A DNA stretch of 64,000 nucleotides from Tamaricihabitans halophyticus (GTDB lineage Bacteria; Actinomycetota; Actinomycetes; Mycobacteriales; Pseudonocardiaceae), in NCBI RefSeq assembly GCF_004340875.1, contig NZ_SLXQ01000004.1:248001-312000 (forward strand), given 5' to 3'. The translations under genes were made by a program, and so were the position numbers. How positions within the stretch are numbered: position 1 is the stretch's first letter; every line of letters begins with the position of its first letter. The notes beneath the pieces are model-generated. The model worked only from the letters and a program-made list of their open reading frames with translations. It searched no databases and was not told the DNA's origin. Positions 13,313 to 54,338 of this stretch are shown one piece after another.

Positions 13313-14497
13313 TTACGCCAGGCGCTGGGCCATCGCATCGATCGTGGCCGGAGCCAGCATCTCGTCGGCGACCAACCCGGCCAGCCCGGTCAGCGTCGCG
13401 TTCTCGCCGAGCGCGGACGGTTCAATCCTCAGCTTCTTCAACGCGCTGGCATGCGCGTTCGCCGTCACCGTCTCGGTAAGCCGGTCCAGAAACGGCGGTA
13501 GCACCCCGATAGCGCCGCCGACCCGTAGATAACGTGGGTTCACGATGGTGACCACGGTGGCCAGCACAGTGCCGACGAGTTTGCCGGCATCGGCGGTTGC
13601 CCGTACCGCGTCCCGCTGGCCCGCCCGCACCAGGCGCGCCACATCCCCCACCGAGCGCGCGCCCGTCGAACGCAATCGCCGCGCCAGTGCATAGCCACTG
13701 GCTACCGCGAACACACAACCCCGCCGACCACAGGTGCACGGCTGCTCGTTGCCTTCGATCCGCATATGGCCGATCTCGCCCGCGCCACCGCTTTCGCCCC
13801 GGTGCGTACGACCATAGGTGACCACGCCGGCGCCAATCCCGGTACCGATCTTGACGCCGACCAGCGCGGCAGCCGGCCGGCCGAGCGCGAAATAGTCGCC
13901 GAACGCCAGCGCGTTCGCGTCATTCTCCAGCACCACCGGAACCCCGAAAGCCTCTTCGAAGGGTGCGCGCAGCGGTACGCCCGTCCACTCCGGCATCGTC
14001 GGCGGCGCCACGGTACAGCCGCGGCTGCCATCAACCTGACCAGGCACGCCAAGACCGACGGCACACAGGCTGTTCGCCCTGCCGGCACGCTCGAGCAGCT
14101 CCTGCCCTTGCTCGACCAGTTCCGGAAGTGTCCGGTGTGGACCGCTGCGCGCGGCGACGGGTTGCTCGCTGCGCAGGAAGACCGTGCCGCACAGGTCGAC
14201 CACGGCGAGCGTGGCGTGGCTCTGGCCCAGGTCGATCACCAACGCGGTACGTCCCGTGTCATCCACGCCGAGTAGTTCCGCCCGCCGGCCACCGCTGGAC
14301 TCCTGATGCCCAGTCCGGCGCAGCCAGCCCAATCTGTCCAAGGTGTCTAGTCGATCGACCATGGTCGCTCTGGACAGCCCTACGCGAGCCTGGAGTTCCT
14401 GTCTGGTCAGCGGGCCATCAGCGCGTAGCACGGCCAGGATATGCCCCGGGGACGTCGGATTCGGCCGACTCGCGACAGGTGGGTACTCCGGAGGCAT
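13313..14497 (-). CDS. ROK-family transcriptional regulator at the end of the phn operon
   Basis: A 394-residue ROK-type regulator. An N-terminal winged helix (LTRQELQARVGLSRATMVDRLDTLDRLG) precedes the sugar-kinase fold, with the phosphate loop VIDLGQSHATLAVVDL, ENDANALAFGDYF, GTGIGAGVV and GEIGHMRI. The zinc motif reads CTCGRRGCVFAVASG; the Glu that usually follows the last Cys is Phe. The ATG at 14497 is preferred because the conserved part begins there; an ATG at 14569, ten bases after the stop codon of the phosphatase-like gene, would add 24 unconserved residues. ROK regulators respond to sugars or sugar phosphates. A ribose-phosphate signal from C-P lyase metabolism is an inference only. 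Confidence 0.85.
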   Translation of the reverse strand: MPPEYPPVASRPNPTSPGHILAVLRADGPLTRQELQARVGLSRATMVDRLDTLDRLGWLRRTGHQESSGGRRAELLGVDDTGRTALVIDLGQSHATLAVVDLCGTVFLRSEQPVAARSGPHRTLPELVEQGQELLERAGRANSLCAVGLGVPGQVDGSRGCTVAPPTMPEWTGVPLRAPFEEAFGVPVVLENDANALAFGDYFALGRPAAALVGVKIGTGIGAGVVTYGRTHRGESGGAGEIGHMRIEGNEQPCTCGRRGCVFAVASGYALARRLRSTGARSVGDVARLVRAGQRDAVRATADAGKLVGTVLATVVTIVNPRYLRVGGAIGVLPPFLDRLTETVTANAHASALKKLRIEPSALGENATLTGLAGLVADEMLAPATIDAMAQRLA

Positions 14498-14576
14498 CTC
14501 CCCATCATCCCTGACCTGCCCTTGCCGGCACGCAACCGACACCCACGCTGTGCGCCCCGCCACCGCCATACATCGG

Positions 14577-15401
14577 TCAGCCTCGAATCGCGCCAGCCAG
14601 CTCCTCCGCGAGCAGTGGGGTCGCGGCGACCACCCCGGACCACCGTTTGCTCAGATCGTTGTCGATCTCGACTGGCCGTCCGAACGCATCCAGTACACAA
14701 CCACCGGCCGCCGGCACCAGCACCAGCGCGGCGGCCAGGTCAACGATGCGATGGGTGTCCGAGCCGGCATCCACGAAACCATCCGTCGCGCCCTCGGCAA
14801 CAAGCGCGGCTTCCAGGCAGCTGGTGGACAGCACCCGAACCCTGCTGGCCTGATCCGCTACCCGCCACCACGCGTCCACGGTGTGCCGCTGCGGGCGCAG
14901 CAGGCTCACCGCCGCGCCAGCGAGGCTCGTCCGGCCGGTCGTGCGATACGGCGTCGGCTCGCCAGCCACCGCACGCCAGCACCGCCCGGTGTCCAGCCAG
15001 CAGGTCAGCGACTCCACCGGAACCCCATCGCGCACCAGGGTCGCGGCGAAGGCCGACAGCGGAACACCCGCCACCGCGTTCGCCGTTCCGTCCACCGGAT
15101 CAACCACGATCGTGCTCGCCGATCCGTTGTCGACGACGCCGACCTCCTCGCTGAGCAGGTTCACCCCTAGCCGGTTCACCTGCTCCGCGATGGCGCCATC
15201 CACCAGCTCATCGAGTCGCATCGTCGGCGTTCCGTCCGCCCCCATACCGACCTTCTCGGCCAGCTCCGTGCGGGTGAGCGTGCCGCGTGCCGACCGGAAG
15301 GCGGCGGCGGCCACGTTCGCGAGCGCCGCCAGCGCCGGGTCGGTAGCCGCAGGAATCTCCGGATCTGGGATCGGCCAGCCGATCAGGCCCGGGTCGGTCA
15401 C
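14577..15401 (-). CDS. Inositol-monophosphatase-superfamily phosphatase coupled to phnM
   Basis: A 274-residue member of the lithium-sensitive IMPase/FBPase/bisphosphate-nucleotidase superfamily. Metal-binding motifs are present: SEEVG (about 84-88), VVDPVDGTAN (about 99-108) and a second Asp in HRIVDLAAALVLVPAAGG (Asp about 221). The GTG at 15401 overlaps the phnM stop as GTGA, tight translational coupling that puts the enzyme inside the phosphonate pathway. An upstream GTG at 15455 would overlap phnM more deeply. No PhnP or PhnN is encoded here, so I infer that this enzyme may dephosphorylate a ribose bisphosphate, or the cyclic phosphate product, released by C-P lyase. That activity is not shown for the family. 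Confidence 0.85.
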   Translation of the reverse strand: MTDPGLIGWPIPDPEIPAATDPALAALANVAAAAFRSARGTLTRTELAEKVGMGADGTPTMRLDELVDGAIAEQVNRLGVNLLSEEVGVVDNGSASTIVVDPVDGTANAVAGVPLSAFAATLVRDGVPVESLTCWLDTGRCWRAVAGEPTPYRTTGRTSLAGAAVSLLRPQRHTVDAWWRVADQASRVRVLSTSCLEAALVAEGATDGFVDAGSDTHRIVDLAAALVLVPAAGGCVLDAFGRPVEIDNDLSKRWSGVVAATPLLAEELAGAIRG

Positions 15402-16615
15402 CGCGTACTCCTCTCCGGCACGGCCGCTGGCAGCACTGATCGTACGGCCGGCCACTGACCGCTGAGCGACACCAACACCAGATCCGCACGCAGGCCCTCG
15501 GCCAGCGCACCCCGGTCGGTCAACCCAGCTACCTCGGCGGCACCTTCGGTCACCAACCGAATCGCCGACGGCACGTCGAGTTCCCCGAACCGCACCAGAT
15601 CGAACGCGGCGGCAAGCAGGCCGGACGGCAGATAGTCCGAGGCAAGCGCGGTCACCAGGTTCTCCGCGATGAGCTCCTGGCCAGAGGCGTTGCCGTTATG
15701 CGAACCGCCACGCAGCACGTTCGGCGCGCCCATCACCACGGGCAAGCCATGCTCGCGGGCCGCGATGGCCGCCTCGCGAGTGGTCGGGAACTCAGCCACC
15801 GCGCCACCCCGGGTGCACAGCGCGGAGATCTCCGCCGCGCTGTCCGGATCGTGCCCAAGGAGCCGGATCTGGCCGGCCTGTGCAAGCTCGCCCACCCAGT
15901 CCAAGGCCTCAGTACGCACCGACAGCCGCTCGTTGCGTTTCTCGATCATCGCATCGACCTGCTGTTTCGCCTCCTCCTCCGCGTAGCCGCGGGTACCCAT
16001 CAGATAGCGCTCGAAGTACCGGCGGTCCGCGTACTGGCCCTGCCCGGGAGTGTGGTCCTCATGCGAAACCAGCGGCACTCCGGACACCGTGTCCAGCCTG
16101 CGGCGTAACGCCGCGAGACCCGTTGGGCACCGCACGTCCAACCGGTACAGGATATGGTGCGCGACCAGAGCGTGCGTATGGTTATCGATCGCCGCACACG
16201 TCTCCTCTGCCGCCCGCACCGACCGGCGCAACCCACCGGCCATACCGTCCTCGAAGCCAGCACCGTGAAACACCGTCGTTACCCCGGCGGCGCGGAGTTT
16301 GCCCTCAAAGGACACCAACGCGAACTCGATTGGCAGTTCGGCGCCGGGCCGTGGCAGCCGTTCCTTCTCCAAGCCGTCGCTGTGTACATCCACCAGTCCG
16401 GGCAGGCACAACATGCCCTGACCATCTACATCAGACAAGGTACCTGGCGTATGCGGTTCGACCGCGGCGATCAGCCCATCGCGCACCACGATCCGCGCAT
16501 CATCGAGCACCCGGTCCGGCAGCACCGCGCGAACATGGCCAAGCACAAAGTTTCGCGGCGCGCCGGCCAGCGTCCAACCGCCCTCACCAACCCGTTCCAG
16601 TATCCCCGCGGTCAT
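15398..16615 (-). CDS. phnM: PhnM, ribosyl-phosphonate triphosphate diphosphohydrolase
   Basis: A 405-residue amidohydrolase-fold PhnM. It removes pyrophosphate from alpha-D-ribose 1-methylphosphonate 5-triphosphate to give the 5-phosphate substrate of C-P lyase. Hallmarks are LPGLVDVHSDGLEKE, VFHGAGFEDG, SHEDHTPGQGQY, LGHDPDSAAE and GAPNVLRGGSHNGN. It starts in an ATGA overlap with phnL (16612-16615) and ends in a GTGA overlap with the phosphatase-like gene. All catalytic landmarks look intact and the length is close to the E. coli protein (378) with a short N-terminal extension. Confidence 0.95.
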   Translation of the reverse strand: MTAGILERVGEGGWTLAGAPRNFVLGHVRAVLPDRVLDDARIVVRDGLIAAVEPHTPGTLSDVDGQGMLCLPGLVDVHSDGLEKERLPRPGAELPIEFALVSFEGKLRAAGVTTVFHGAGFEDGMAGGLRRSVRAAEETCAAIDNHTHALVAHHILYRLDVRCPTGLAALRRRLDTVSGVPLVSHEDHTPGQGQYADRRYFERYLMGTRGYAEEEAKQQVDAMIEKRNERLSVRTEALDWVGELAQAGQIRLLGHDPDSAAEISALCTRGGAVAEFPTTREAAIAAREHGLPVVMGAPNVLRGGSHNGNASGQELIAENLVTALASDYLPSGLLAAAFDLVRFGELDVPSAIRLVTEGAAEVAGLTDRGALAEGLRADLVLVSLSGQWPAVRSVLPAAVPERSTR

Positions 16616-17349
16616 GCCGCCTCCCCTAGCACATCGGCCGGCGCGCCGTCCCGGCTGACCGTCCCATCCGCGAGCAGCACCACCCTGGTGGCCAACCGTC
16701 GCATCACTTCGGCGTCGTGGAAAACAGCAAGTACGGCGACGTTCTGCTCGACAAGGGAATCCACCAAGCTCAGCGCGGCCTCACGGTTCTCTGGGTCCAA
16801 TGCGGACACTGGCTCGTCGAGCAACAGCAACCGAGGTGGCCGCACGGTACCCGCCGCGAGATTCACCCGCTGCCGCTCGCCACCGGAAAGTACGCCACAA
16901 TCGACGTCCCACAGGCTTTCGTCCACATTCAACCGATGTAGCGCCGCGGCCGCCGCATCGCGCGCCTGTTCCCGATCCAACCCACGCCGGCGTGCGGTCG
17001 CGGCGACCGTTTCGAGCGGTCCGGTGCGTGGTGGCGCGGCCAGAAACTGCGAAACGTAGCCGATTTCCCTGCCGCGCAGTCGCGCCATCGCGCGATCCGG
17101 CAGTCCGGTGAGCTCGATCGGTTCGCCGCTCGTTGTCATTCGAACCGACCCCGAGTCGGCGAGATAGGTTCGGTACACACAACGCAGCAGCGAGGATTTG
17201 CCCGCACCGCTGGCACCGGCCAAGGCGACGTGCTCCCCCGCGTGCACGTCCAGGTCCACGCCGTGCAGGGAGGACACTCGTCGGCCGTCGATCGTGTGCA
17301 GAGTGAAGGTTTTGCGTAGCTCGCGTACCGCGAGCACCGGACTAGCCAT
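16612..17349 (-). CDS. phnL: PhnL, C-P lyase system ABC-type ATPase
   Basis: A 245-residue ABC ATPase subunit of the phosphonate pathway. In E. coli PhnL is needed with PhnG, H and I for the ribosyl-transfer step and binds the core complex through PhnK. Walker A is GASGAGKSSL, the signature is LSGGERQRVNL and Walker B is LLLLDEPVSALD. The H-loop is VFHD. The ATG at 17349 sits eight bases after a perfect AAGGAGG; the in-frame GTG at 17358 overlaps the phnJK stop (GTGA) but abuts the Shine-Dalgarno. The gene is soluble-protein-like, with no membrane segments. Confidence 0.94.
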   Translation of the reverse strand: MASPVLAVRELRKTFTLHTIDGRRVSSLHGVDLDVHAGEHVALAGASGAGKSSLLRCVYRTYLADSGSVRMTTSGEPIELTGLPDRAMARLRGREIGYVSQFLAAPPRTGPLETVAATARRRGLDREQARDAAAAALHRLNVDESLWDVDCGVLSGGERQRVNLAAGTVRPPRLLLLDEPVSALDPENREAALSLVDSLVEQNVAVLAVFHDAEVMRRLATRVVLLADGTVSRDGAPADVLGEAA

Positions 17350-17354
17350 GGCAC

Positions 17355-19193
17355 TCACCTCCTTGCCGCGGCGACCAGCCGCTGGGTGTACGGGTGGTGT
17401 GGATCGTGGAAAAGCTGGTCGGTGAGGCCGCGCTCGACCACCCGACCGAGTTGCATCACCAACGTGCGATCGGTGAGCGCTTCGATCACCGCGAAATCAT
17501 GGCTGACCACGACGGCCGCGATGTCCCGCTCGGCCAGCAAACCGCGCAGTAGATCGATGACCCCTGCGGCAACCGAAGCGTCCAGCCCAGTGGTGGGCTC
17601 ATCCAGCAGCAGCACCGCGGGTTCGGTAGCGAGTGCCTTGGCGATCTGCACGCGCTGTCGCATGCCACCAGAAAAGGTCCGCACCGGATCATCCATCCGG
17701 GAGAGCGGCACCTCGACTCGATCGAGCAGTTCGGCCGCCCTGCGCCGGATGCGGTGATACCCACGCCAACCGGCCGCGGTCAGCCGTTCGGCGATATTGC
17801 CGCCCGCGGTGATATCCAGGTTCAAGCCCGCGGCAGGATCCTGGTACACCACGGCCATCGAATCGATGCGCAGTTTCCTGCGTTGCTCGTCCGGCAGGGC
17901 AAGCACATCGGTGCGTCCCGCGTCGACCGCGCCGAGCCGGACGGTACCGCTGGTTGCCGGCACGTCACCGACCACGCAGCTGAGCACGGTCGATTTACCC
18001 GACCCCGACTCGCCGATCAACCCCAGTGCCTCGCCTGGTGCGACATCGAAATCAACATCCCAGGCGGCCACGATCGCCCCCGTCGACGGGCTCACCGCGC
18101 TACCGCTTTCCGGTCCCGTTCCGGGCACCGCGGCCGCCCCGCCCGAACCGTGCACCTTCCCTACCTCGGACACCCGCAAGGCCCATTCCGGCGTGTCCGC
18201 GGTGCGCTCGACAGTGCCGTGAACCTCCTCCTCGACCTCAGTTCCGACCAGCCTGCGGCGCGGGTCAGGCAGTTGTCCCAGCGGTGCTCGCTTCCGGTGC
18301 GCCACGATATCGGCATCGCCTTCGCGTACCCGGGTGCACCATTCGGTGTCACTGCACACGTAGCCGCCGTTCGGGCCGCCCTCGACAAGGAAGACGTCGT
18401 CGCTGCCACACAGCTTGCAGTACGAGTCCGGTGCGTACTCCACTTCGAACGGAACATCCGCGAACGTCAACGGGTGCACGTCGGTATGCGGCGGGATCGC
18501 ATAGATCCGCTTTTCTCGACCGGCACCGTAGAGATTCAGGTGCTCGGCCTGATGCAGCCGGGGCACGTCCCAGCGCGGTACCGGGCTGGTAGCCATCACG
18601 TAGCGGCCATCGACTTCCACTGGGTAGCCGCTTGACGCGGTGATCAACCCGTTGCGCACGATATCCTCGTAGAGGCTCACCCACATCTTCGAGTAATCCG
18701 CCTCGGCATGCATCCGGCCGCATTCGACGACGGACTTCTCCACGCCACGCAACGGCTCCGGAACCGGAACCTGGTACACCATGATATGCCGCTCGCCAAG
18801 TGCCTCTTCCGGAATGCGGTGTCGACTCTGGATCACCGTTGCGTCCCTGGTGTCCGTGGTTTCCGCACAGTCTGTCGTACCACCGATCATCCGACGCAGG
18901 TTCGTCGCGTTAACCCCCGCGTCATCACCCTGATCGATGACCTTGACGGTGTCGGCAGGCCCGATCACGCCGAGGGTGACCTGCAGACCACCGGAACCCC
19001 AGCCGCGGGCAACCGGCATCTCCCGAGACCCGAACGGTACCTGGTAGCCGGGCACACAGACCGCACTCAGGACCGCACGGCGCACCTCGCGTTTGGCTCC
19101 CTCGTCCAGAATCTCCTGGCGGACTCCCCTTGCTTCGTCCACATCGGCCAGTAGCGCACGGATCGCGGACGCATCGGTCGTTGTTACGGTCAT
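17355..19193 (-). CDS. phnJK: PhnJ-PhnK fusion: C-P lyase radical SAM subunit fused to its ABC ATPase
   Basis: One 612-residue frame carries two proteins that E. coli makes separately. Residues 1 to about 310 are PhnJ, the radical-SAM enzyme that cleaves the C-P bond of 5-phosphoribosyl 1-phosphonate. RRAVLSAVCVPGYQVPF, the GGLQVTLG region and four Cys at about 259, 262, 280 and 286 (CKLC...C-X5-C) match the Fe-S cluster and thiyl-radical cysteines. After a Gly/Ser/Glu-rich linker, residues about 337-612 are PhnK, with LGLIGESGSGKST (Walker A), FSGGMRQRVQIAKAL (signature) and LLLDEPTTGLD (Walker B). The ATG at 19193 overlaps the phnI stop (ATGA); a TTG at 19199 is less likely. There is no sign of a frameshift joining two genes. 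Confidence 0.95.
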   Translation of the reverse strand: MTVTTTDASAIRALLADVDEARGVRQEILDEGAKREVRRAVLSAVCVPGYQVPFGSREMPVARGWGSGGLQVTLGVIGPADTVKVIDQGDDAGVNATNLRRMIGGTTDCAETTDTRDATVIQSRHRIPEEALGERHIMVYQVPVPEPLRGVEKSVVECGRMHAEADYSKMWVSLYEDIVRNGLITASSGYPVEVDGRYVMATSPVPRWDVPRLHQAEHLNLYGAGREKRIYAIPPHTDVHPLTFADVPFEVEYAPDSYCKLCGSDDVFLVEGGPNGGYVCSDTEWCTRVREGDADIVAHRKRAPLGQLPDPRRRLVGTEVEEEVHGTVERTADTPEWALRVSEVGKVHGSGGAAAVPGTGPESGSAVSPSTGAIVAAWDVDFDVAPGEALGLIGESGSGKSTVLSCVVGDVPATSGTVRLGAVDAGRTDVLALPDEQRRKLRIDSMAVVYQDPAAGLNLDITAGGNIAERLTAAGWRGYHRIRRRAAELLDRVEVPLSRMDDPVRTFSGGMRQRVQIAKALATEPAVLLLDEPTTGLDASVAAGVIDLLRGLLAERDIAAVVVSHDFAVIEALTDRTLVMQLGRVVERGLTDQLFHDPHHPYTQRLVAAARR

Positions 19194-20305
19194 CGACAAT
19201 CCCTTCCAGCCGGGTCAGCGACCCTCGGCCCCATTCCGGCGTCCGCTGCGGCCCGCATCGCCTGCTTGCGTTCGACCATCGAACGAAATGTCACATAGTG
19301 CGGCAGCTTCAGGTGTTCCAAGAATCCACCGGAATCGAGGCCATCCGTGGTCAGCAACAGCAGCTGCTCCAGGGGCCCCTGCCGACCGAATCGCCTATTC
19401 GCTATGTCCAAATTGGCCATAGCGATTACCTTGCGCTCGTTGTGCCCTAGACAGAGCCCGTAGCCGACATCGAACTTCGTCCGATCCTCCTCGGCACCGT
19501 CCAGATCCTCGATCGCCTCCGCCTCCGTCACCCGGAACTCGCCTACGGTCACCGGGTTCCCGGTGTGTGGATGCCGGATTCGCAGCGGCAACCGGCCATG
19601 CCGCACCTCGCCGAGCGTCACCTCGTGCACATCACCATCCGGACCGAGAATCGACCGGTACCAGAGCCCGACCAGCGCACCCGTCTCCGCGCGAGCCATG
19701 GTCGCCAACACCGCCGATCGCGCCGCCGGCGGCCGGGCGGGTACTCGGGTGATGTCATGCGGTTCGGCGTCCCCGTTCTCGCCACGGTGATCAACCACCA
19801 GATCAAGTTTGCGTAGTAGATCAAGGAAGCGGCGCGGCTGCCGCTGCTCATCGGTACGTTCCACAGGTTCCGGCTCCGGCGAGGCATCGGGTGGAGCCGG
19901 CTGGCCATCCGGCCGCTCGAGCATCCGTCCCGTGTAGTCGGTGGTACGCCCAAGCAGCTGCGGTCCGTCCGGTTCCCGGAAAGCCGGCACGATCCGGCGC
20001 AGTACGATCAGCTCATCGGGATCGACAGGTTCGCTGTTCGCCAACCGGGGAAGCGTCGAACGCTGAGCGCGCACCAGATGCGCCGCCTCCAGCGGATCAC
20101 CTTCGGCCTGCCGCAGTGCCGCGGCCGCGGTCGGTTCGTGATAGAGCCCTGCTTCGCCCATCACGCGATCAACGGCAAGCCGGAACCGTTCCGTGATCTG
20201 CTCGGTCGATGCCCACGGTGCCGGAGCGTGATCACGTTTGCGGCGAACCAGATCCTCGGCGGCCAGAATCGCCGCAAGCCCGCCGCGTGCGCCTGAATAC
20301 CCCAT
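19190..20305 (-). CDS. phnI: PhnI, C-P lyase complex nucleosidase subunit
   Basis: A 371-residue PhnI. In E. coli it displaces adenine from ATP with phosphonate to give ribose 1-phosphonate 5-triphosphate, acting with PhnG, H and L inside the C-P lyase core. The start GYSGARGGLAAILAAEDLV, the central MARAETGALVGLWYRSILG and the C-terminal DVGYGLCLGHNERKVIAMA and LDSGGFLEHLKLPHYVTF segments are characteristic. Its ATG overlaps the phnH TGA by one base (TGATG at 20303-20307). The C-terminal tail (about 30 residues) is longer and more polar than needed. Confidence 0.95.
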   Translation of the reverse strand: MGYSGARGGLAAILAAEDLVRRKRDHAPAPWASTEQITERFRLAVDRVMGEAGLYHEPTAAAALRQAEGDPLEAAHLVRAQRSTLPRLANSEPVDPDELIVLRRIVPAFREPDGPQLLGRTTDYTGRMLERPDGQPAPPDASPEPEPVERTDEQRQPRRFLDLLRKLDLVVDHRGENGDAEPHDITRVPARPPAARSAVLATMARAETGALVGLWYRSILGPDGDVHEVTLGEVRHGRLPLRIRHPHTGNPVTVGEFRVTEAEAIEDLDGAEEDRTKFDVGYGLCLGHNERKVIAMANLDIANRRFGRQGPLEQLLLLTTDGLDSGGFLEHLKLPHYVTFRSMVERKQAMRAAADAGMGPRVADPAGRDCR

Positions 20306-20919
20306 CAGTCCTCCAGTTCCGTCACCGCGGTTGTCCGCGGCAGGCCAACCATCCGTCCGTCCGGGGCCACCAGCAGCAGGTCGATTCCAGCCGGATAACC
20401 CGCCACCGCGACATCGCGCGCGGCAAGGAGATCCGAGCCCACCCCAGCCAGGGACACCCGCAGCTCACCTGGCACGCCGGGACCGGACAGTTGCCAGCGG
20501 GTCGCCCCACCGTCCACATCAGATACCGCGAGCGCGACGAGCGCGCCGTGCTCCGGAGCGCTGGCGCTGCCACGCGGCAGCGCGGCCAGTTCAGTGGCGG
20601 ACAGCGTCCCCTCGGCGGCAACAAGCCGCGCCGAGCCCAGGTCGGCGATTGGCGCATTGGTCACCACTCGCACCACATCGACCCAGTGCGGGTCCTCGTG
20701 TCGTACGTACACCCCAGTACCGAGATCGGCGAGCGCCAGCACTGGCAGTAGTACCGGCGGCAGCTCGCTGGCCGGATCGGTTGCCAGCCGCTGCACCTGA
20801 CCGGGCCTGGACAGTGCGTCGAGTACCGCGCGAAAAACCCGCTGCGCGTCATCCGGCAGCAGATTCGCCCTGGCCACTCGCTCCGCGACCGTGCGGTCCA
20901 CGTCGAGCACTCCCGTCAT
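20305..20919 (-). CDS. phnH: PhnH, C-P lyase core subunit
   Basis: A 204-residue PhnH, an essential non-catalytic core subunit of the PhnGHIJ complex with a PLP-transferase-like fold. The family N-terminus (DDAQRVFRAVLDALSRPGQVQRL) and the C-terminal pattern GIDLLLVAPDGRMVGLPRTT are clear. The start is ATG 20919, within an ATGA overlap with phnG; the open frame upstream to 20964 is not used. The lengths of PhnG and PhnH here (144 and 204) match the usual sizes. Confidence 0.93.
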   Translation of the reverse strand: MTGVLDVDRTVAERVARANLLPDDAQRVFRAVLDALSRPGQVQRLATDPASELPPVLLPVLALADLGTGVYVRHEDPHWVDVVRVVTNAPIADLGSARLVAAEGTLSATELAALPRGSASAPEHGALVALAVSDVDGGATRWQLSGPGVPGELRVSLAGVGSDLLAARDVAVAGYPAGIDLLLVAPDGRMVGLPRTTAVTELED

Positions 20920-21350
20920 GTCAACTCCTCGAACTCGACGATGGTGGGTGCCAGCTCTGCCCATTCCCGCTCCGCCTGCCGGTGACCGCGTTCAGCCACC
21001 GCGCGACAGAGATCGTCCACATCGGCCGCGCGATCCCGCCCTGCCTGCGCTTCCGCATCGAGTACCGCCGCGGCGAGTACCGCGGCACGATCGTCGCCCA
21101 ACCGGACCGCCCAGCCACGTTGCTCGGCCAGCTCTACCTCGGCACGACAGGCAAGCACATCCCCGAGCAAGAACCGCTCGGCCGCGACCGGTTCGCGTAC
21201 CTGCGCGGTGATACAGCCGACCTCGGGAGAAACCAGCACCCGAAGTCGCGCGCCATCGCCAAGACAGGCGTCCGCCAGTTGGATCAACTCATCCGGTTCG
21301 GCCTCAGCGAGCAGCGCGCAGCGTTGCTCCCGGCCCATTCCTTCGCTCAC
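20916..21350 (-). CDS. phnG: PhnG, C-P lyase core subunit
   Basis: A 144-residue PhnG, the small subunit required with PhnI for ribosyl-phosphonate formation. It begins with the conserved block REQRCALLAEAEPDELIQL and ends with WAELAPTIVEFEELT. The GTG start at 21350 overlaps the phnF stop as GTGA (21347-21350). Acidic and helical, without membrane segments. Confidence 0.9.
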   Translation of the reverse strand: MSEGMGREQRCALLAEAEPDELIQLADACLGDGARLRVLVSPEVGCITAQVREPVAAERFLLGDVLACRAEVELAEQRGWAVRLGDDRAAVLAAAVLDAEAQAGRDRAADVDDLCRAVAERGHRQAEREWAELAPTIVEFEELT

Positions 21351-22144
21351 CGCTCCTCCTCGACAACTGGCGCCCGCGGCGCCGTGTCATCTCGTAGTTC
21401 TGGGTCGTCTAGTCCTGGGTCGTCTAGTCCTGGGTCGTCTTGCAGTTCCACCACCACGCGCACGGCATCCGCCCGGGTCCATGAGTCGCTGCACATCAGC
21501 AGCTGGCCGGAAGACGCGTCCCTGCTTGCGCTTTCCACCAGCCACGCCGGTTGGCTGGCCTCCATGCGCAACCCGCGCAACACTTCACTTGGTGGCACAT
21601 CCAGGCTGACCCGACACCACGCGCGAACCGGCGATACCCGACCCATCTGGCGCAGCACCAGATCGATCGAATCCACCGCGTGCAGAGCCAGATCGAGATC
21701 CGGCACCAAGTCGACCGGAATCCATTCATGCACCCAAGACGCCAGCAGATCATCGATATAGAACTCGCGGATCACCCGATGCGCGAGCGAACCGGCCGGC
21801 CTAGCCAACCTGGCTGCCCGATCGTCCGGAAGCGGGATCTGGTCAACGTCCTTGACCAACGCCCGAGGTTTGGCCCCCGCGGCAGTGACCGTAGCCGTCC
21901 AGGACGGCGGCCTCCGATGCGAGATCACGTAGTCAATCCGGCGATTCACGTACGTGCCCGAACCCTGCACCCTGCGGACAACCAGCCGGCGTTCCAGTTC
22001 CTGAACCGCCGCGCGCGCCGTGGCCCTGCCCACCCCGAACCTGGTGGTGATCTCGTGCTCGCTGGCTACCCGGGTACCCGGCGTGCATCCGTCGAGTTCC
22101 CTGCCGAGTTCCTCGGCGATTTCCAGGTATCTGGTCGAACTCAC
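21347..22144 (-). CDS. phnF: PhnF, GntR/HutC-family regulator inside the operon
   Basis: A 265-residue GntR-family regulator of the HutC/PhnF branch. The winged helix covers about residues 15-75 (ASEHEITTRFGVGRATARAAVQELERRLVVRRVQGSGTYV), followed by a UTRA-type ligand domain (IREFYIDDLLASWVHEWIPV, SLDVPPSEVLRGLRMEASQPAWLVES). It is placed between the transporter genes and phnG. GTG 22144 is the likely start because the family begins there, although the ribosome site is weak. The C-terminal tail contains a short acidic repeat (DDPGL DDPGL DDPEL) encoded by a 15-base tandem repeat. I found no TGGTATAGACCA-like operator in the operon. Confidence 0.88.
   Translation of the reverse strand: MSSTRYLEIAEELGRELDGCTPGTRVASEHEITTRFGVGRATARAAVQELERRLVVRRVQGSGTYVNRRIDYVISHRRPPSWTATVTAAGAKPRALVKDVDQIPLPDDRAARLARPAGSLAHRVIREFYIDDLLASWVHEWIPVDLVPDLDLALHAVDSIDLVLRQMGRVSPVRAWCRVSLDVPPSEVLRGLRMEASQPAWLVESASRDASSGQLLMCSDSWTRADAVRVVVELQDDPGLDDPGLDDPELRDDTAPRAPVVEEER
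21401..21440. repeat. 15-bp tandem repeat within phnF
   Basis: Two perfect copies and one partial copy of TGGGTCGTCTAGTCC run from 21401 to 21440. They encode DDPGL-type acidic pentapeptides in the C-terminal tail of PhnF. The array keeps frame because 15 is a multiple of three. Copy number could vary between strains. Confidence 0.85.
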
Positions 22145-22274
22145 AACACCACGATGTGCGGCCAACTCGTCCGAACAACTGCGCCACAGGTAACACACGA
22201 ATCCGAGAAAGTGAACATCCGGATAGCTTGTTGCCCACCAACCGCGGAGAACCGGATCGTTATCGACAACTGGC

Positions 22275-23948
22275 TCAGCGAAGGACGCTTCGTAGCCACA
22301 GCGCCAGTAGTTCGACAACAAGCACGGTGCCGAAAACCAGGAGCATCACGGTAGTCACGACACCGAACTCCAACACCCTGGATGCGTTGAGCAGTTGGAA
22401 ACCGATCCCACCGGCGCCGACGATACCGAGCAACGTCGCGGACCGGATGTTCACATCAAGCTGATAAAGCAGATGACCAACGAACGCCGGCGCGGCCTGT
22501 GGCACCGTTGCCGAGCAGAACACCTGCCATGCGCTCGCGCCGGTCGCCCGAACCGCTTGTTCCTTGCCGGGATCCACTTCCTCGAGCGAATCCGCAACGA
22601 GTTTACCCAGTAGCCCAATGGCTCCCACGCCGAGCGCACAGGCACCGGCAACCGGCCCCAATCCGGTGATTACCACGAACACGATCGCCAGCACCAACTC
22701 CGGCAACCCACGTACGGTCACCACGATGGTCCGGAATACCTTGGCAACCGAAGCACGTGGCGCGACGTTGCGGGCGGCGAGCGCGCCGATGGGCAAGGCG
22801 AGCACGGCCCCGATCAGGGTTCCCGCCAGCGCGATCTTCACGGTAACCCACAGATCGGCCAACAGGGTTGGCAACATACCGCCGGTTTCCGGCGGCCAGA
22901 ACAAGCCAAGGGTGCTGCCAAGATCACCAAGCGCGCCGAAGAACTGGCCGACCGACAGCTCAGCACCCCAGATCGACGCGAGTACGACGAGACCGGTCAA
23001 CACCAGATAGCCCGCCCGGCGAATCCGCTGGAATGTCCACCGTGGACTCAAACGCTGTTCGCTTCGCGCGCCGCGCTGGCTGGGTACACTGGACACCGAT
23101 CGACGACCACGATCGGTGGAACGCAGCAGTGCGCGCCGGATCGCCCCGGAGAGCAGCTCGATCACGATGCACAGCACCAGCACGACCAGCGCCAGGGCCA
23201 TACCGCGCTGGTAGTCCAGTTGCCGGAACGCCGTCGCGATCTCATGTCCGAGGCCGTTTACTCCAACGAAGCCGAGCACCACCGAGATGCGCAGGTTGAT
23301 ATCGAAGCGATGCAGCGCGTGCGCCACGAAGGCGGGCAGCACTTGGGGAAGTACTCCCGAGGTCAACTCCTGCAACCGCGAGGCTCCGCCCGCACGGACC
23401 GCCTGCCTCGGCCCTTCGTCGATCTGCTCGATCGCGTCGGCATACAACTTGCCGACCATGCCGACCGAGTGCAGACCCATCGCAAGCACACCGGTGAGTG
23501 CACCAAGCCCGAACACCCTGAAGAAGATGATCGCGAGCACCACGTCCGGGACGGCACGGGCCACGACGATCAGCCCGCGCGAGGTATAGCGCGACGTCCG
23601 GTTCGGAGTCGTGTTGCTGGCGGCCAGCACCGCGATCGGCACACTCAGCAGCACGGAAAGCAACGTCGCACAGACAACAATCGCCAACGTCTGACCGGTC
23701 AGCCGCAGCAGCTCGCCAGTTCCAGGGAAATCAAGTGGAAACATCCGCCCGGCGAACTCGGCGGCGTTACGCCCGCTGTCGATCAGCGTGGCGATGTTGA
23801 TCCGCAGATCCAGCACCGCCCAGCAACCGAGGCCCAACAGAGCCGCGATCGCCAGAAACGCCAGCGCGCTCGTCGGGCGCGGTGCCGCCAGCGTGCGCGG
23901 CTGCGCCGGAGCCCCTTCGCCCGCTGGCGCTCGAGTAATCGGCATCAT
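22275..23948 (-). CDS. phnE: PhnE1-PhnE2 fused phosphonate ABC transporter permease
   Basis: A 557-residue permease made of two tandem PhnE-type units. Both halves carry the cytoplasmic EAA loop region (QIDEGPRQAVRAGGASRLQEL... and EVDPGKEQAVRATGASAWQVF...) and each has about six hydrophobic segments, so one chain probably supplies the whole membrane pore. The second half repeats LGFVGVNGLGHEI as LGIVGAGGIGFQL. The start is the first of two adjacent ATGs (23948), overlapping the phnC stop (ATGA). It imports phosphonates or phosphite with PhnD and PhnC. The product ends 130 bases before the start of phnF. Confidence 0.92.
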   Translation of the reverse strand: MMPITRAPAGEGAPAQPRTLAAPRPTSALAFLAIAALLGLGCWAVLDLRINIATLIDSGRNAAEFAGRMFPLDFPGTGELLRLTGQTLAIVVCATLLSVLLSVPIAVLAASNTTPNRTSRYTSRGLIVVARAVPDVVLAIIFFRVFGLGALTGVLAMGLHSVGMVGKLYADAIEQIDEGPRQAVRAGGASRLQELTSGVLPQVLPAFVAHALHRFDINLRISVVLGFVGVNGLGHEIATAFRQLDYQRGMALALVVLVLCIVIELLSGAIRRALLRSTDRGRRSVSSVPSQRGARSEQRLSPRWTFQRIRRAGYLVLTGLVVLASIWGAELSVGQFFGALGDLGSTLGLFWPPETGGMLPTLLADLWVTVKIALAGTLIGAVLALPIGALAARNVAPRASVAKVFRTIVVTVRGLPELVLAIVFVVITGLGPVAGACALGVGAIGLLGKLVADSLEEVDPGKEQAVRATGASAWQVFCSATVPQAAPAFVGHLLYQLDVNIRSATLLGIVGAGGIGFQLLNASRVLEFGVVTTVMLLVFGTVLVVELLALWLRSVLR

Positions 23949-24754
23949 CCGGCCGCGGTGAGTACGGAGCGCATGGCTGGCTGGGTGTACACCTCCATCG
24001 CGGATTCGCGCGACAGACCAACGCTCGGCGCATCGAGAACAACCTCGCCGGAACGCAGTCCGATAATCCGGTCGCCCCAGGACAGCGCGAGGTCGAGTTG
24101 ATGCAGGCTGCACAGCACCGTGAGGCCCTGCTCCACGCTGATCTCCCTGATCAACCGCATCACCTGCGCGGCGGACTCCGGATCGAGCGAGGCGACCGGC
24201 TCATCGGCCAGCAGGATCTCCGGGCGCTGTACCAGGGCCCGCGCTACCGCGGCACGCTGTTGCTGGCCACCGGAAAGCGTGTCAGCGCGCTGGAACGCCT
24301 GTGCCGCCAATCCGACTCGCTCGAGCTGGCCCAACGCCTCGCGTCGAACCGATCGCGGATAACTCAACAGACCGAGCCGGGGGCCGCGCAGCCGGCCAAG
24401 CGCCCCCGTGCAGACGTTCTCCAGCACGGTCAGCCCGCCGACCAGCTCGAACTGCTGGAACACGAACCCGACACGTCGCCGCAGAGCCCGCGCTCGCGCA
24501 CCTCGCATGCTCCCGACATCCGCACCGAGCACCGATACGGTTCCGGAGCTCGCCCGCTGCAGCCCGTCCACCTGACGGAGCAATGTGGACTTTCCGGAGC
24601 CGGAATGCCCGAGCAGTACGACCACTTCGCCGGCCCGGACATCGAAGGAAACGTCGTTCAGTGCGACCACATCGGGCGGGAAGTGCTTGGACACATCGGA
24701 GAACCGGATCGTTACCGCGCCGCTCTTCGGGTCAGGAAACTGACTCACCGTCAT
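23945..24754 (-). CDS. phnC: PhnC, phosphonate ABC transporter ATP-binding protein
   Basis: A 269-residue import ATPase. Walker A is LLGHSGSGKSTLL, the signature is LSGGQQQRAAVARAL, Walker B is LLADEPVASLD and the H-loop is CSLHQLD. The family-typical QQFELVGGLTVLENVCTG follows the Q-loop. The ATG at 24754 has TAGGAGAG upstream and lies 32 bases after phnD. It energises uptake through the fused PhnE. Confidence 0.95.
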   Translation of the reverse strand: MTVSQFPDPKSGAVTIRFSDVSKHFPPDVVALNDVSFDVRAGEVVVLLGHSGSGKSTLLRQVDGLQRASSGTVSVLGADVGSMRGARARALRRRVGFVFQQFELVGGLTVLENVCTGALGRLRGPRLGLLSYPRSVRREALGQLERVGLAAQAFQRADTLSGGQQQRAAVARALVQRPEILLADEPVASLDPESAAQVMRLIREISVEQGLTVLCSLHQLDLALSWGDRIIGLRSGEVVLDAPSVGLSRESAMEVYTQPAMRSVLTAAG

Positions 24755-24786: not shown

Positions 24787-25734
24787 TCACGCCTGGCACT
24801 GCTCGTCGTCGGTGATCTCACATACCTCCCGGACACCGTCGTAGAAGGCATCATCCACGTCGGTGTATCCCCAGCTACCTTCCTCGCCGACCGAGCAATC
24901 CTTGTCGCAGAAGCCGTTCTCCCGCAGGTAGTCCACATTGGCCTTCTCTTGGAAGGCATCGGTGATCGTCTTACGCAACGCAGGGTCCAGATCATCGGCG
25001 ATCGCGGCTGGCGACCCGGCGATGGTCTCGGACTTCCAGATGACCTCCAGGTCTCCCTTCTTCAACTGACCCTTGCCGGGCAGCGTGACGTCCACCATGT
25101 CGTCGAAGGCGAACCCCGCTTCGCACTGACCGCTGGCCACCGCCAAAGCGGAGGCGTCGTGTCCACCGGTCATGACCTCTTCGATGTCCTGTTCCGGATT
25201 CAACCCCGCTTCGATCAACCCAGCGGACGGATAGAGATATCCAGAAGTCGAGTTCGGATCCACGAAGCACACCTTCTTGCCCCGCATATCAGCAAGCTTG
25301 GTGATTCCCGAGCCGGGTTTGGTGATCGCATAGGACTGGTAACCGGGTTCGGCACCCTGTTCCTCCACTTGCGCCCCCACCGGGGTGGTGCCCACCCCGC
25401 TACTGCGGGCAAGCACGTAGGAGAACGGGCCGTACTGCGCGATGTCCACCTTGCCGGTCCGCTGGCCCTCGATGATCGCCGCGTAATCGGTCGCGTGCTG
25501 GAAAGTGATCTTCTTGCCGGTCTCCTCCTCGAGCATGTCGATCACCGACTGATAACTCTGCTGCAGACTGGTCGACTCCTCGCTCGGAACCGCGGCGAAG
25601 ACGAGCTGATCCGGATTTCGTGACTCCTGGTCGGCGGAATCGTTGGCGGCGCTCTGTCCGCAACCGGCCAGCATCAGTGCGGCCGTCGCGGTCACCGCAA
25701 CGGGGCCGAGCACCTGCCGTGTGCTACGCGTCAT
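24787..25734 (-). CDS. phnD: PhnD, phosphonate-binding lipoprotein
   Basis: A 315-residue periplasmic-type binding lipoprotein. The signal peptide has a hydrophobic core and lipobox LAGC at about residues 22-25. The PhnD fold shows FAAVPSEESTSLQQSYQSVIDMLEEETGK, IAQYGPFSYVLA, CFVDPNSTSGYLYPSAGL and GYTDVDDAFYDGVREV. Four late Cys (FCDKDC, VCEITDDEQC) could form disulfides. This is the first gene of the operon; GGAGGAGGAG precedes its ATG. Ligand specificity (phosphonates, phosphite or phosphate esters) cannot be read. Confidence 0.93.
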   Translation of the reverse strand: MTRSTRQVLGPVAVTATAALMLAGCGQSAANDSADQESRNPDQLVFAAVPSEESTSLQQSYQSVIDMLEEETGKKITFQHATDYAAIIEGQRTGKVDIAQYGPFSYVLARSSGVGTTPVGAQVEEQGAEPGYQSYAITKPGSGITKLADMRGKKVCFVDPNSTSGYLYPSAGLIEAGLNPEQDIEEVMTGGHDASALAVASGQCEAGFAFDDMVDVTLPGKGQLKKGDLEVIWKSETIAGSPAAIADDLDPALRKTITDAFQEKANVDYLRENGFCDKDCSVGEEGSWGYTDVDDAFYDGVREVCEITDDEQCQA

Positions 25735-39683: not shown

Positions 39684-39893
39684 TTACTCCCCCATCGCCT
39701 CTACCAGGCTACGTGGGCGCATATCGGTCCAGTTCCGCTCCACATAGTTCAGACACGCCTCCCGTGACTCGACACCGAACACCTGGGACCAGCCAGCCGG
39801 CACCTCGGCAAACGATGGCCACAGACTGTGCTGGTTCTCCGCGTTCACCAGCACCACGAACTGACCCTCTGGGTCGTCGAACGGGTTACTCAT
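39684..39893 (-). CDS. mbtH: MbtH-like protein
   Basis: A 69-residue MbtH-like protein, the small chaperone/activator that binds NRPS adenylation domains. [32 protein letters not shown] and the signature [17 protein letters not shown] are complete. Its ATG, with AAGGAGG upstream, overlaps the NRPS TGA (ATGA at 39890-39893), so both proteins are made together. Confidence 0.97.
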
Positions 39894-42800
39894 ACCTTTC
39901 CTCCTTTTTGTTCGGTCAATGTAGATAGTCGAGCCTCCGGTGTCGCCACGGCGCCACGCAGTACCGATACCCACCGGTCGGCCAGCAGCGCGACGGCATT
40001 GTGGTCGAAGAGCTCAGTGGCGTACTCGAGCTCGCAGGGCACCGGCCCATCATCGGCCGGCTCATAGAAGCTCACGGTCAGCTCGGTGCGCGCGGTCCCA
40101 GTCGGCACTGCGACGAGTTCGGCACCGAGCTCTTCGACCTCGGTCAGTACCGCCTGCTCGTGGTGGACGAGTAATACCTGCGGCACTGGCGGCAGTTCCA
40201 GCTCCGCGACCAGCCAGGCATAGGGAACATCCTGGTGGTCAAGAGCACCCAACGTCGTCTCCCGGACCCTGCTCAGCAGCTGGAGAAAGCGCGGATCGCC
40301 AGTCGTATCGGTACGCAGCAGCACCGTGTTCGCCAGGCAGCCGACCAGCCCGCCGAGTTCGTCCTCGGTGCGACCGGCGACCTGAGTGCCGATCGGAAGC
40401 TCGGTGTGCCCCTCGGCGCCCAGTACCGTACCCAGCGCGGCGTGCAGGATCATGAACATGCTTGTTCCGGTGCGCTGAGCTAGCCCATCGATCGCGGCGT
40501 GCAGTGCGCTGTCCAGAGTGAACTCGTATCGACCACCGGCGGTCGAGGTGGCCTCCACCGCCTTCGCGCCCGGCAGCCGAACTCGCCCGGCAAGGCCAGC
40601 CAGCTGGCCGCGCCAGTACTCGATCTGGGTCGCAGCGAGGCTGCCAGCGTCATCAGGGTCACCGAGTAGCTGATGCGCCCACAGCGTGTAGTCGGCGTAG
40701 TCGAACGGCAACGCGGTCCATTCCGGAGCCAGCCCGGCACGGCGGGCGCGGTAAGCCGTCACGAAGTCCCGTAGCAGTGGGACAACCGACCACTCGTCAA
40801 CGGCAAGATAGTGCATCCCGAACAGCAGGGCGGTTCCGTCCCGCGCGCTGAGCAACTCGACCCGCAGCGCCGGCTGCTCAACCAGTGCCGGTCGGTATCC
40901 AGCCTGTTCACCTAGCGCCGCGGTAAGCGGTTCGGCGGATTCGGCGAGCAGCACGAGTTCCGGTGGGTCGACCAACCGCTGTCTCGCCACACCGTCCTGC
41001 TCCGCGTAGGAGGTACGCAACGGCACATGGCGGTCGACGAGATCGGTGAGCGCCTGGCGGAGCGTGGGTAGATCGAACGACGTGCTGGTGGTCAACGCGA
41101 GCACCTGATCATCGCCGCCGCCGACACGGTAGCGCGCCCAATGTTCGACCTGATTCGGCGCTAGCGGCAACGCTTCCGGCCGCTCCTGGGACCGCAGGTC
41201 CGGTCGCGCGGTCCACGCCGAGTCGATTCGCTCCGCAAGCGCCGCGACCGTTGGGGCGTCGAACACGTCGCGAATGGACAGATCGGCACCGAACTCGGTG
41301 CGAATCCGCCCGAGTAGCCGCATCGCGGACATCGAGTGGCCACCGAGCGCGAAGAAACTGTCCGCCACGGCGACCTGGGCGACACCAACCCCGTGTAGCC
41401 CGAGCACTTCGGCGAACAACCCGGCAAGCTTGTGCTGGCGCGGTGTCTCAGCTACCGAGTCCGTTCCGGTCAGCGCGGCCCAGTCTGGTGCGGGCAGCGC
41501 CGCCGCGTCGATCTTGCCGTTCGGCGTCAGCGGGAGCGGCCCGGCCAGTTCCACCAGAACATGCGGCATGAAGTAGTCCGGTAGCAACGTGGCAAGCTGC
41601 CCGCGAATAGTGGGTTCGTCCAGCCCAGCCGAGTCCGGATCCGGTACCAGGTATCCGACCAACCTGGGCTCCCCGGTACTCCGGTCCACGACAACCGTGG
41701 CTTGGCCCACGCCGGCACATTCGGTGAGTACGGCGACGATCTCGTCGAGTTCGATCCGGAAGCCACGGATCTTCACCTGGGCGTCGGATCGACCGAGGAA
41801 CTCCAGTGTTCCGTCCAATCGCGACCGAACAAGATCGCCGGTCCGGTACAACCGGGAACCTTCCGGGCCAAACGGGCTCGCTATGAACCGCGCCGAGGTC
41901 AGCGCTTGCCGGCCAAGATAGCCGCGTGCCAACCCCGGCCCCGCGAGGTAGAGCTCGCCGGCGACCCCGGGAGGTACCGGTCGCAACCTGGCGTCCAGCA
42001 CATACACCGCCGTGTTCGGGTCCGGCCTACCGATCGGCGCGGGGCCGCGTAGCCCTGGCTCAGCGCGCCACAGCGTGGAGTTCACCGTCGCCTCGGTCAC
42101 GCCATAACAGACGAACACGGTCAGCTCATCAACCCAGCGCTCGATGAGGTCCGCGGATACGGTTTCGGTGCCAACAAGCAACGTCGTGCCGGCAGGTAGC
42201 CGCTCCTGGCTCGGCAACGCGGAAACCAGCGAAGGTGGCAACGCGGCATGGCTCACCCGCTGGGTGCGCAGGAACTCGGTCAGCGGCCGGCCAGGAACCC
42301 GGATCTCATCGGGCGCGAGTACCAGGGTTGCACCGGTACACAAGGCCATGCACAGCTCGAAGATCGCGACGTCAAACCCGATCGAGGCGAACTGCAACAC
42401 CCGCGACCCAGGCCGCACCCCGAACCGGTCAACCGCGGTGGCCACCAGGCTCGCCAGGCCGCGATGCGGTACCACGACACCCTTTGGCCGACCGGTGGAG
42501 CCGGAGGTGTAAATGACATAGGCGGCTTGGTCGAGCGGCACCACTGTCGGCGAGAACACCGGCTCAGTCGCGGCGAGCTCACCCAGTACCTCAGCCGAAT
42601 CCAGAACCAGCCGCGATACGCCAGGCTCTCCTGCGATCTTCTCCGCATGGGTTTGCGTGGCGATCAGCAGCCGCGCGTCCGAATCGCTCAGTTGGTAGGC
42701 GAGCCGGTCGGCGGGATGCGCGATATCCAACGGCAGGTACACGGCGCCCAGTGTGGTGATCGCGAGCAGCACGCCGATCTGTTCGGCACCGCGCGGCAAG

Positions 42801-45800
42801 GCAACCGCCACCACATCGCCGGGCCGGATTCCTCGGTTGGCCAGCACGGCGGCGATCCGTTGGATATCGGCGTGCAGCTCGGCATAGCTGACCTCGCGGC
42901 ACCCATCACACACCGCGACCGTCTCGGCGTGGTCCCGCGCGATCGAGGCGATCAGATCCGGCAGCGAAGACTCCGGTACGGCCCGGGATTCGGCGTGGCC
43001 ACCGGCACGCGCGCGGTCCAGTTCGGCCGAACTGAGCAGCTCGATCTCCGCTACCGACAGCTCAGGCTCAGCGGCGACGGCGTTGACGACGCTGTTCAGC
43101 CGGTGCGCAAGGTCCGCGACGATGTCCTCCGTGAACAGTTCGGTCGCGTACTCGATTGAGCAGTGCAGCGGTCCCCCGGTGGCCGGGTCCTCGCGGAAGC
43201 TGAACACCAGGTCGAACTTGGCCGCCCGGTGTTCGACTGGTTCCCAGTCCAGCCGCAGCTCCCCGAAATCGAGCGCGGCTTCCTGCGGATCACGGTAGCT
43301 CACCAGCACCTGGAAGAGTGGGTTCCGCGCGGCCGAACGTGCCGGATTGCATTCCTCGACGACAGCCTCGAACGGCACATCGGCATTCGAGAAGGCCGCC
43401 AGATCGGTTTCCCGCAGTTGCCGGACGAGCTGGCGAAAACTCGGTGCACCGGACAGGTCAGCCCGAAGCACCACGGTGTTCACGAAGAATCCGACCAGCT
43501 CGTCCAGCGCTTCGTCCGAACGGCCAGCAATCGGTGTGCCGAGCGGGATATCCGTGCCCGCGCCCATCCGGTACAGGAATGCGGCAACGGCGGCCTGCAC
43601 GACCATGAACATGCTCGCACCGGTTTCTCCACTGAGTTCCCTGAGCTGTCCGCTCGCGTACTCGTCAAGCGGGAACTCGAGTACCCCACCGGAGCCGCTT
43701 GGCCGTGCCGGCCGAGGGCGCGCTCCCGGCAGCTGTATCTCCTCGACGATGCCGGCCAAGGAATCTTTCCAGTAGGCCAGCTGGCTGGCCAGCACACTGT
43801 CCGGATCGGACCGATCACCGAGCAGCTGACGCTGCCAGAGGGTGTAGTCCGCGTACTGAACGGGTAGCGGCGACCAGTCCGGGGCCGCTGCGACCAGGCG
43901 CGCTCGGTATGCCGCGGACAGATCACGCAGGAACGGGGCGTCGGACCACTCGTCGGTAGCGATATGGTGCAGCAACAGCAACAGCACGTGTTCCGTATCG
44001 GACAGTCGGAACACGGTTGCCCGCAGCGGGATCTCGATGGACAGGTCGAACGGGCGATCGAGACCGGCGCGCAGCAGCTCTGGCAGTTCGGCCGCGGTGA
44101 CCTGGACCTCGTCTACCGGTACGTCGACCGTGTCCGCGGGAAGCACCCGCTGCTCGGGTACGCCGCCGCTGACCGGGAACACGGTCCGCAATGCCTCGTG
44201 CCGCCCCACCACGTCGGCAAGCGCCGATCGCAGCGCGGTGCCGTCCAGCTGGCCGGACAAACGCAGCGCCAACGGGAAATTGTATGCCGCCGAGCCGGTG
44301 GTGGACTGGTCGATCAGCCACAATCGCTGCTGGGCGAAGGAAAGCGGGATCGCGACGGGCCGATCCTGCGGCACGAGCACTGGTCGCGGCCCCCGCGTGC
44401 CACCGGCACGGGGCGCGAGTTCGGCGACCGTGGGTGCGTCGAACAGATCGCGGATCGACAGTTCCGCGCCAAGTTCCGTGCGAGCCCTGCTGATCAGTCT
44501 GGTCGCCAGCAGCGAGTGGCCACCCATCTCGAAGAAGCTGTCGTCGATACCGACCGAGGCGGCGCCAAGCAGCTCCGCGAACAACGCGCACAGCACCCGC
44601 TCGGCAGCATCTCTTGGCTGCCTGCTGTCCGCGCCGGCTTCGATCACCGGGGCGGGCAGCGCAGCGACATCGAGCTTGCCGTTGACGGTCAACGGCAACG
44701 CGTCGACGCCGATAATCGTTGCGGGCACCATATAGTCCGGTAGCAGCCGTTTGACGAACCGTTTGAGCTCTTCGGGGCGGGCCGAACCCACGACATACCC
44801 GACCAGCCGAGGAAATCCGTTGGCCGAGGACATCAGTACCGTGGCATGCGCGACATCCGGATGTTCGGCAAGCGCGGCACTGATCTCACCGAGTTCCACC
44901 CGGTAACCGCGGATCTTCACCTGGTCGTCGGTGCGGCCCAGGAAGTCGAGGTTCCCGTCGATGCGCGTCCGCACCAGATCACCAGTCCGGTACATCCGGG
45001 CGCCAGGCTCGAATGGATTGGCCACGAACCGTTCCGCGGTCAGCCCCGGCCGGTTGTGGTATCCCCTGGCCAGCCCGATACCGGAGATGTAGAGCTCACC
45101 CGGAGTCCCCGGCGGCACCGGCCGCAGCCGCGGATCGAGCACGTACGCCCGGGTGTTCCAGATCGGACGGCCAACCGTCGACGTCGCCGAGTCGAGGGTG
45201 CCCCCACCAAGGGTGTTGATCGTGTACTCCGTCGGCCCATACAGGTTGTAGCCGAAAGTCCCCTCCGTATCGCACAGCCGCCGCCATACGGTCTCCGGAA
45301 CCGCTTCCCCACCAAGCAACACCAGTGGCGGGATATGGCCTTCGAGCAATCCTTCGTCGATCAGCTGCTGCGCGTAGGTGGGCGTCACGTTCACCACGTC
45401 GACGGCGTGCCGGTTACAGTAACGGACCAACTCGGGCGCGTCCCTGCGCAGCCGCTCATCGCAGATATGCACCTCGTGTCCTTCGATCAGCCAGAGCAGC
45501 TCCTCCCAGGACATGTCGAAGGCGAACGAGACGGTATGCGCGATCCGCAGCCGGCGCCCAGCCAGCCGGACGGTCGGATCGAAGATCTCCGCCCGGTGAT
45601 TGAGCTGCATGTTCGTCAGCCCGCGATACGGTGTGACGACTCCCTTCGGTCGGCCGGTCGATCCGGAAGTGTAGATCAAGTAGGCGGGGTGTTCGAGCCG
45701 TTCCGGCCGATCCTCGGCGAACGCACCAAGTTCTACATCGGACAGTGGCGCGGTGGCGAACGTCTCGAGTTGCGCGTGGATGGCGGGTTCGTCCAGCTCC

Positions 45801-54271: not shown

Positions 54272-54338
54272 CGTTTCGACTCCCCGCGTTCGGCGAACTG
54301 GTCCGTTGGTCGTGGTTGTCGATGGCCGTGTACAGCCA

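Follow-up and report, generated by a model that had tools for sequence, protein, structure and literature searches.

In Escherichia coli, the C-P lyase core complex and PhnM together yield 5-phospho-ribosyl 1,2-cyclic phosphate. The phosphoribosyl 1,2-cyclic phosphate diphosphodiesterase PhnPP, represented by Elen0235 of Eggerthella lenta, has a PHP fold and goes through ribose 2,5-bisphosphate to ribose 5-phosphate. The PhnP of E. coli, which acts on the C-P lyase product, has a metallo-beta-lactamase (MBL) fold and carries out ring opening only. The cyclic phosphate thereby becomes ribose 1,5-bisphosphate, and PhnN makes PRPP (PMC10574752). The DUF1045 protein, hereafter also called RcsF, a 2H phosphoesterase found together with PhnN in phn operons of Frankia and in others, has been proposed as a cyclic phosphodiesterase (PMC8235418, PMC10574752). 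In a survey of 54 phn operons, 27 contained PhnP, 16 of the rest contained a 2H enzyme and approximately 11 contained neither (PMC10574752). The open-access literature searched yielded no description of a phn-linked inositol monophosphatase (IMPase), and an earlier mention in subscription papers is possible; the searched passages of a review on phosphate in Streptomyces (PMC7866108) contain no mention of such a gene.

The window, i.e. the whole stretch of 64,000 nucleotides of Tamaricihabitans halophyticus DNA which was analysed, contains a complete and tightly packed C-P lyase operon on the minus strand, the final gene of which codes for an IMPase-fold phosphatase (14577-15401, minus strand). 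The ORF runs from a GTG at 15401 to a TGA at 14577 and corresponds to 274 amino acids without an internal stop. The overlap with phnM described in the original prediction was confirmed, the four bases GTGA being common to the stop of phnM (15398-16615) and the start of the IMPase gene. The operon, all of it on the minus strand, begins with genes for a phnD-like phosphonate-binding protein (24787-25734; PF12974, E 4.2e-60), phnC (23945-24754; TIGR02315, 274.5 bits, above the cut-off), a phnE of 612 amino acids in which two permease domains are fused (22275-24113; two stretches of TIGR01097, E 1.4e-142) and a phnF-like regulator with GntR and UTRA domains (21347-22321; TIGR02325, E 1.1e-19, below the cut-off). 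These are followed by phnG (20916-21350; PF06754, E 7.7e-20), phnH (20305-20964; PF05845, E 3.6e-34), phnI (19190-20305; PF05861, E 2.3e-90), a phnJ-phnK fusion (17355-19199), phnL (16612-17358; TIGR02324, E 2.7e-67) and phnM, coding for RPn triphosphate diphosphatase (NF011984, 302.6 bits, cut-off 260). The fusion protein of 614 amino acids combines the C-P lyase catalytic subunit (PF06007, residues 30-292), with the PhnJ cysteines kept in the alignment, and the ABC ATPase (TIGR02323, residues 373-611). The PhnJ match also lies in a similarly long frame in other operons of the IMPase type (G455, G762, G793), and in some operons phnJ and phnK are apart. As had been claimed, neither phnP, phnN nor phnO was found in the operon. 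A ROK-family gene (13313-14569, minus strand) lies directly downstream of the IMPase gene; at locus L050 the IMPase gene is likewise followed by a ROK gene, there on the opposite strand. Elsewhere in the window, a single very large ORF of 4832 amino acids occupies 39890-54388 (minus strand).

The 274-amino-acid protein belongs to the inositol monophosphatase superfamily by its profile, its metal ligands and its predicted fold. It passes PF00459 (Inositol_P) with 70.6 bits (E 1.9e-19) against a cut-off of 27, and the metal-ligand pattern E..DPxDG..D, which had been said to be kept, is indeed intact, with E85/E86, D101, D104 and D221 present and invariant across the subfamily described below. 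An AlphaFold2 model calculated from an alignment of 33 sequences (pLDDT 96) has the IMPase fold, not the MBL or PHP fold of PhnP and PhnPP, and its best match among solved structures is MJ0109 (1dk4; Z 29.8, 2.4 Å over 246 residues). The archaeal dual FBPase/IMPase enzymes MJ0109 and AF2372 are the closest solved structures, with approximately 25 % identity and the same metal site, and their family acts on a furanose bisphosphate. The protein differs from them in scoring 130.8 against a cut-off of 264 with the archaeal FBPase/IMPase model NF009321, its best NCBIfam match, and in having its own invariant signature (R169-P170, W178, D215, H217). Besides these residues and the metal ligands, R187, R189, D211, R218 and R242 are invariant in the subfamily, and several of the invariant basic residues would suit a bisphosphate substrate. 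The structure matches also include the Staphylococcus aureus IMPase-II with 2'-AMP (5dw8), so the IMPase fold can bind a ribose 2-phosphate.

The known end enzymes were searched genome-wide with curated model thresholds in the T. halophyticus genome, which is 98.7 % complete. No protein passed for PhnP, the top score of 27 bits against a cut-off of 272 belonging to an RNase Z-like MBL protein (L029), or for PhnN, for which the top score (54 bits against 156) was that of guanylate kinase. TIGR03223 (DUF1045, RcsF) had no matches, and for PhnPP (NF041661) a COG0613-like PHP protein (L129) scored 93 bits against a cut-off of 500, so that the phnP gene which the original prediction had suggested looking for elsewhere in the genome was not found at these thresholds, nor was a phnPP gene. 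All four known end-step genes are thus absent at curated thresholds, and proteins of equivalent function but divergent sequence may be encoded elsewhere in the genome. The original prediction had taken the lack of phnP and phnN as a clue to the function of the IMPase gene, and this holds in part. The known end enzymes are missing, but the absence of phnP carries little weight, since the PhnP model is not passed in any of the 40 further actinobacterial genomes searched, most of which have C-P lyase; what is informative is the contrast with operons containing DUF1045 and PhnN.

PhnJ was surveyed in 394 genomes of the class (11 positive) and 397 of the order (9 positive), and there were 17 PhnJ genomes in all. 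Six of the 17 have an IMPase of the subfamily, always within the phn operon, and these six contain neither a DUF1045 match nor a PhnN above the cut-off. The other 11 comprise five Frankia-type genomes with DUF1045 and PhnN, one (G462) with DUF1045 alone, and five with none of the known end enzymes, namely three of Mycobacterium type (G290, G383, G631), G138 and G242. The phn operons of the Mycobacterium-type genomes (L027, L028, L123) contain neither PhnP, PhnN, DUF1045 nor the subfamily IMPase. The presence of PhnN or DUF1045 in 0 of 6 IMPase-bearing versus 6 of 11 other PhnJ genomes corresponds to a Fisher p of 0.043. Among the actinobacterial loci examined no operon had both kinds of gene, an exclusivity which is partly due to relatedness, since a divergent PhnJ type is common to the IMPase operons and most operons with PhnN are of Frankia type. 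In Streptomyces endocoffeicus both kinds occur, each in an operon of its own. DUF1045 with PhnN occupies the same functional slot beside phnL and phnM as the IMPase, but its fold is unrelated and it leads via PhnN to PRPP. As 5 of the 11 IMPase-negative PhnJ genomes are without known end enzymes, the end steps may come from genes elsewhere, a point against the role proposed below for the IMPase.

We propose, in line with the original prediction of a phosphatase giving ribose 5-phosphate and with a probability of approximately 0.6, that the gene codes for an alternative end-step enzyme of the actinobacterial C-P lyase pathway which would yield ribose 5-phosphate and phosphate. A role in this pathway is likely, the substrate, regiochemistry and product being inferred. 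The core complex and PhnM would produce 5-phospho-ribosyl 1,2-cyclic phosphate, the cyclic ester would then be opened, and the metal-dependent IMPase-fold enzyme would cleave off the phosphate left at C1 or C2, so that ribose 5-phosphate and free phosphate result. The enzyme would take the place of PhnN, and its reaction that of the route through PRPP; combined with a ring opener, it would match what PhnPP achieves by itself. Since PhnPP proceeds via ribose 2,5-bisphosphate, such an intermediate is chemically reasonable. Like PhnPP, the candidate would end the pathway at ribose 5-phosphate and phosphate, bypassing PhnN and PRPP, but it belongs to another fold and family, and the opening of the ring, which PhnPP performs itself, is for the IMPase only a candidate activity.

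The operon in T. halophyticus encodes no ring opener, and no conserved neighbouring ring-opening enzyme was found when one was sought across the IMPase operons, so a phosphatase alone would leave the pathway incomplete if it did not open the ring as well. The ring opener may be the IMPase itself or an enzyme encoded elsewhere, the genome having the COG0613-like PHP and RNase Z-like MBL proteins. If it were the IMPase, the same protein would hydrolyse both ester bonds of 5-phospho-ribosyl 1,2-cyclic phosphate in the manner of PhnPP, which would agree with the absence of a ring opener from every IMPase operon examined, with DUF1045 and PhnN both being missing where the IMPase is present, and with the conjugative Arthrobacter plasmid NZ_CP093327.1 (L125), whose phn operon from phnD to phnM has the IMPase as its sole extra enzyme. 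The presence of PHP and MBL phosphoesterases elsewhere in the T. halophyticus genome argues against such a double activity, and we know of no member of the IMPase superfamily that opens cyclic phosphodiesters, which makes it doubtful.

The proposed end-step role is consistent with the distribution of the gene. In a scan of 84,980 species genomes, in which the locus counts refer to the matches listed and are lower bounds, at least 55 loci were found at 47-72 % identity, followed, among the matches listed, by a break to 35 % or less. In a phylogenetic tree, 53 sequences and the window protein formed one clade (support 97/90), and on this sequence comparison the IMPase is a member of a distinct actinobacterial subfamily of at least 54 sequences. 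Hosts include Streptomyces, Saccharopolyspora, Mycobacterium, Amycolatopsis, Nonomuraea, Rhodococcus, Nocardia, Microlunatus, Frankia and several MAGs. The gene-neighbour conservation that the original prediction had left to be checked is seen at 29 of 54 subfamily loci among the matches listed, which lie in phn operons, compared with 0 of 25 other IMPases near phn core genes (Fisher p 6e-7, a value which ignores the kinship of the loci), and on two plasmids, according to the annotation in public records, the Arthrobacter plasmid and one of Pseudonocardia. The gene follows phnM at 21 of the 29 phn-linked loci, phnE at five (Rhodococcus, Nocardia) and phnL at three, and so stays in the operon despite changed gene order. 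The order phnM/IMPase, seen again at 21 further loci belonging to several families, with an overlap of four bases at 15 loci and a spacing of one base at five, is more than a chance arrangement. An apparent fusion of PhnM and IMPase (L025, L082) is artefactual and stems from a stretch of N in the assembly. Three MAG contigs with the operon (L072, L081, L083) are labelled Bifidobacterium breve; they cluster with differently labelled contigs and the label looks doubtful. In two Mycobacterium operons the IMPase is followed by a Phn-HD-like oxygenase (L039:10828-11361, L057:10741-11397), and a relative lies near the IMPase in a MAG (L080:9362-10009), the only three loci in which the HD protein was seen; that of L039 scores 145 bits with TIGR03276, below the cut-off of 214.6.

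Copies of the gene also occur outside C-P lyase operons. One of the two copies in Amycolatopsis acididurans lies inside the phn operon and the other elsewhere. At 18 loci of Lentzea, Saccharothrix and Actinosynnema type (within L044-L064) the IMPase gene adjoins a malate dehydrogenase gene and the genomes have no PhnJ, so the enzyme has, or has gained, another use, which is a caveat to the proposed end-step role. These 18 copies nest within the phn-linked members, which suggests, with the tree rooted by midpoint only, that the operon was lost and the gene retained. Two Rhodococcus genomes and one Streptomyces genome have the IMPase with phnE sequence and no PhnJ. Together with the position of the gene after phnE in Rhodococcus and Nocardia, these genomes are what would be expected of a general phosphatase acting on phosphate esters that enter via PhnCDE under phosphate starvation, with no relation to the C-P lyase product. 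Such a function is improbable, since 21 loci place the IMPase after phnM and not after the transporter, the operon of the Pseudonocardia plasmid contains the IMPase with no phnCDE nearby, and in L074 and L035 phnE is matched only in part, so that these sequences may be operon remnants. That the protein is an ordinary IMPase, FBPase, HisN or PAP phosphatase present in the operon by happenstance, as its standard fold and metal site and the Actinosynnemataceae-type copies without C-P lyase would allow, is highly improbable, considering that its scores stay well short of the curated cut-offs for the IMPase, FBPase/IMPase, HisN (TIGR02067, 64.3 against 275) and CysQ PAP phosphatase (TIGR01331, 37.3 against 228.8) models, that the coupling is conserved in many families and on plasmids, and that the same genome encodes four other IMPases, one of which (L004) passes the HisN model with 287.7, so that the housekeeping roles are covered.

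An IMPase acting at the end of the C-P lyase pathway would release phosphate directly and not through PRPP. The phn-linked IMPase would escape surveys limited to phnP, phnPP and phnN. Were the enzyme also to open the ring, it would add a further independent fold ending the pathway, besides the PHP (PhnPP), MBL and 2H routes, and its activity would be new to the superfamily of lithium-sensitive phosphatases. For a large group of actinobacteria from soil and fresh water, the gene provides one testable end-step candidate, which is also found on a conjugative plasmid.
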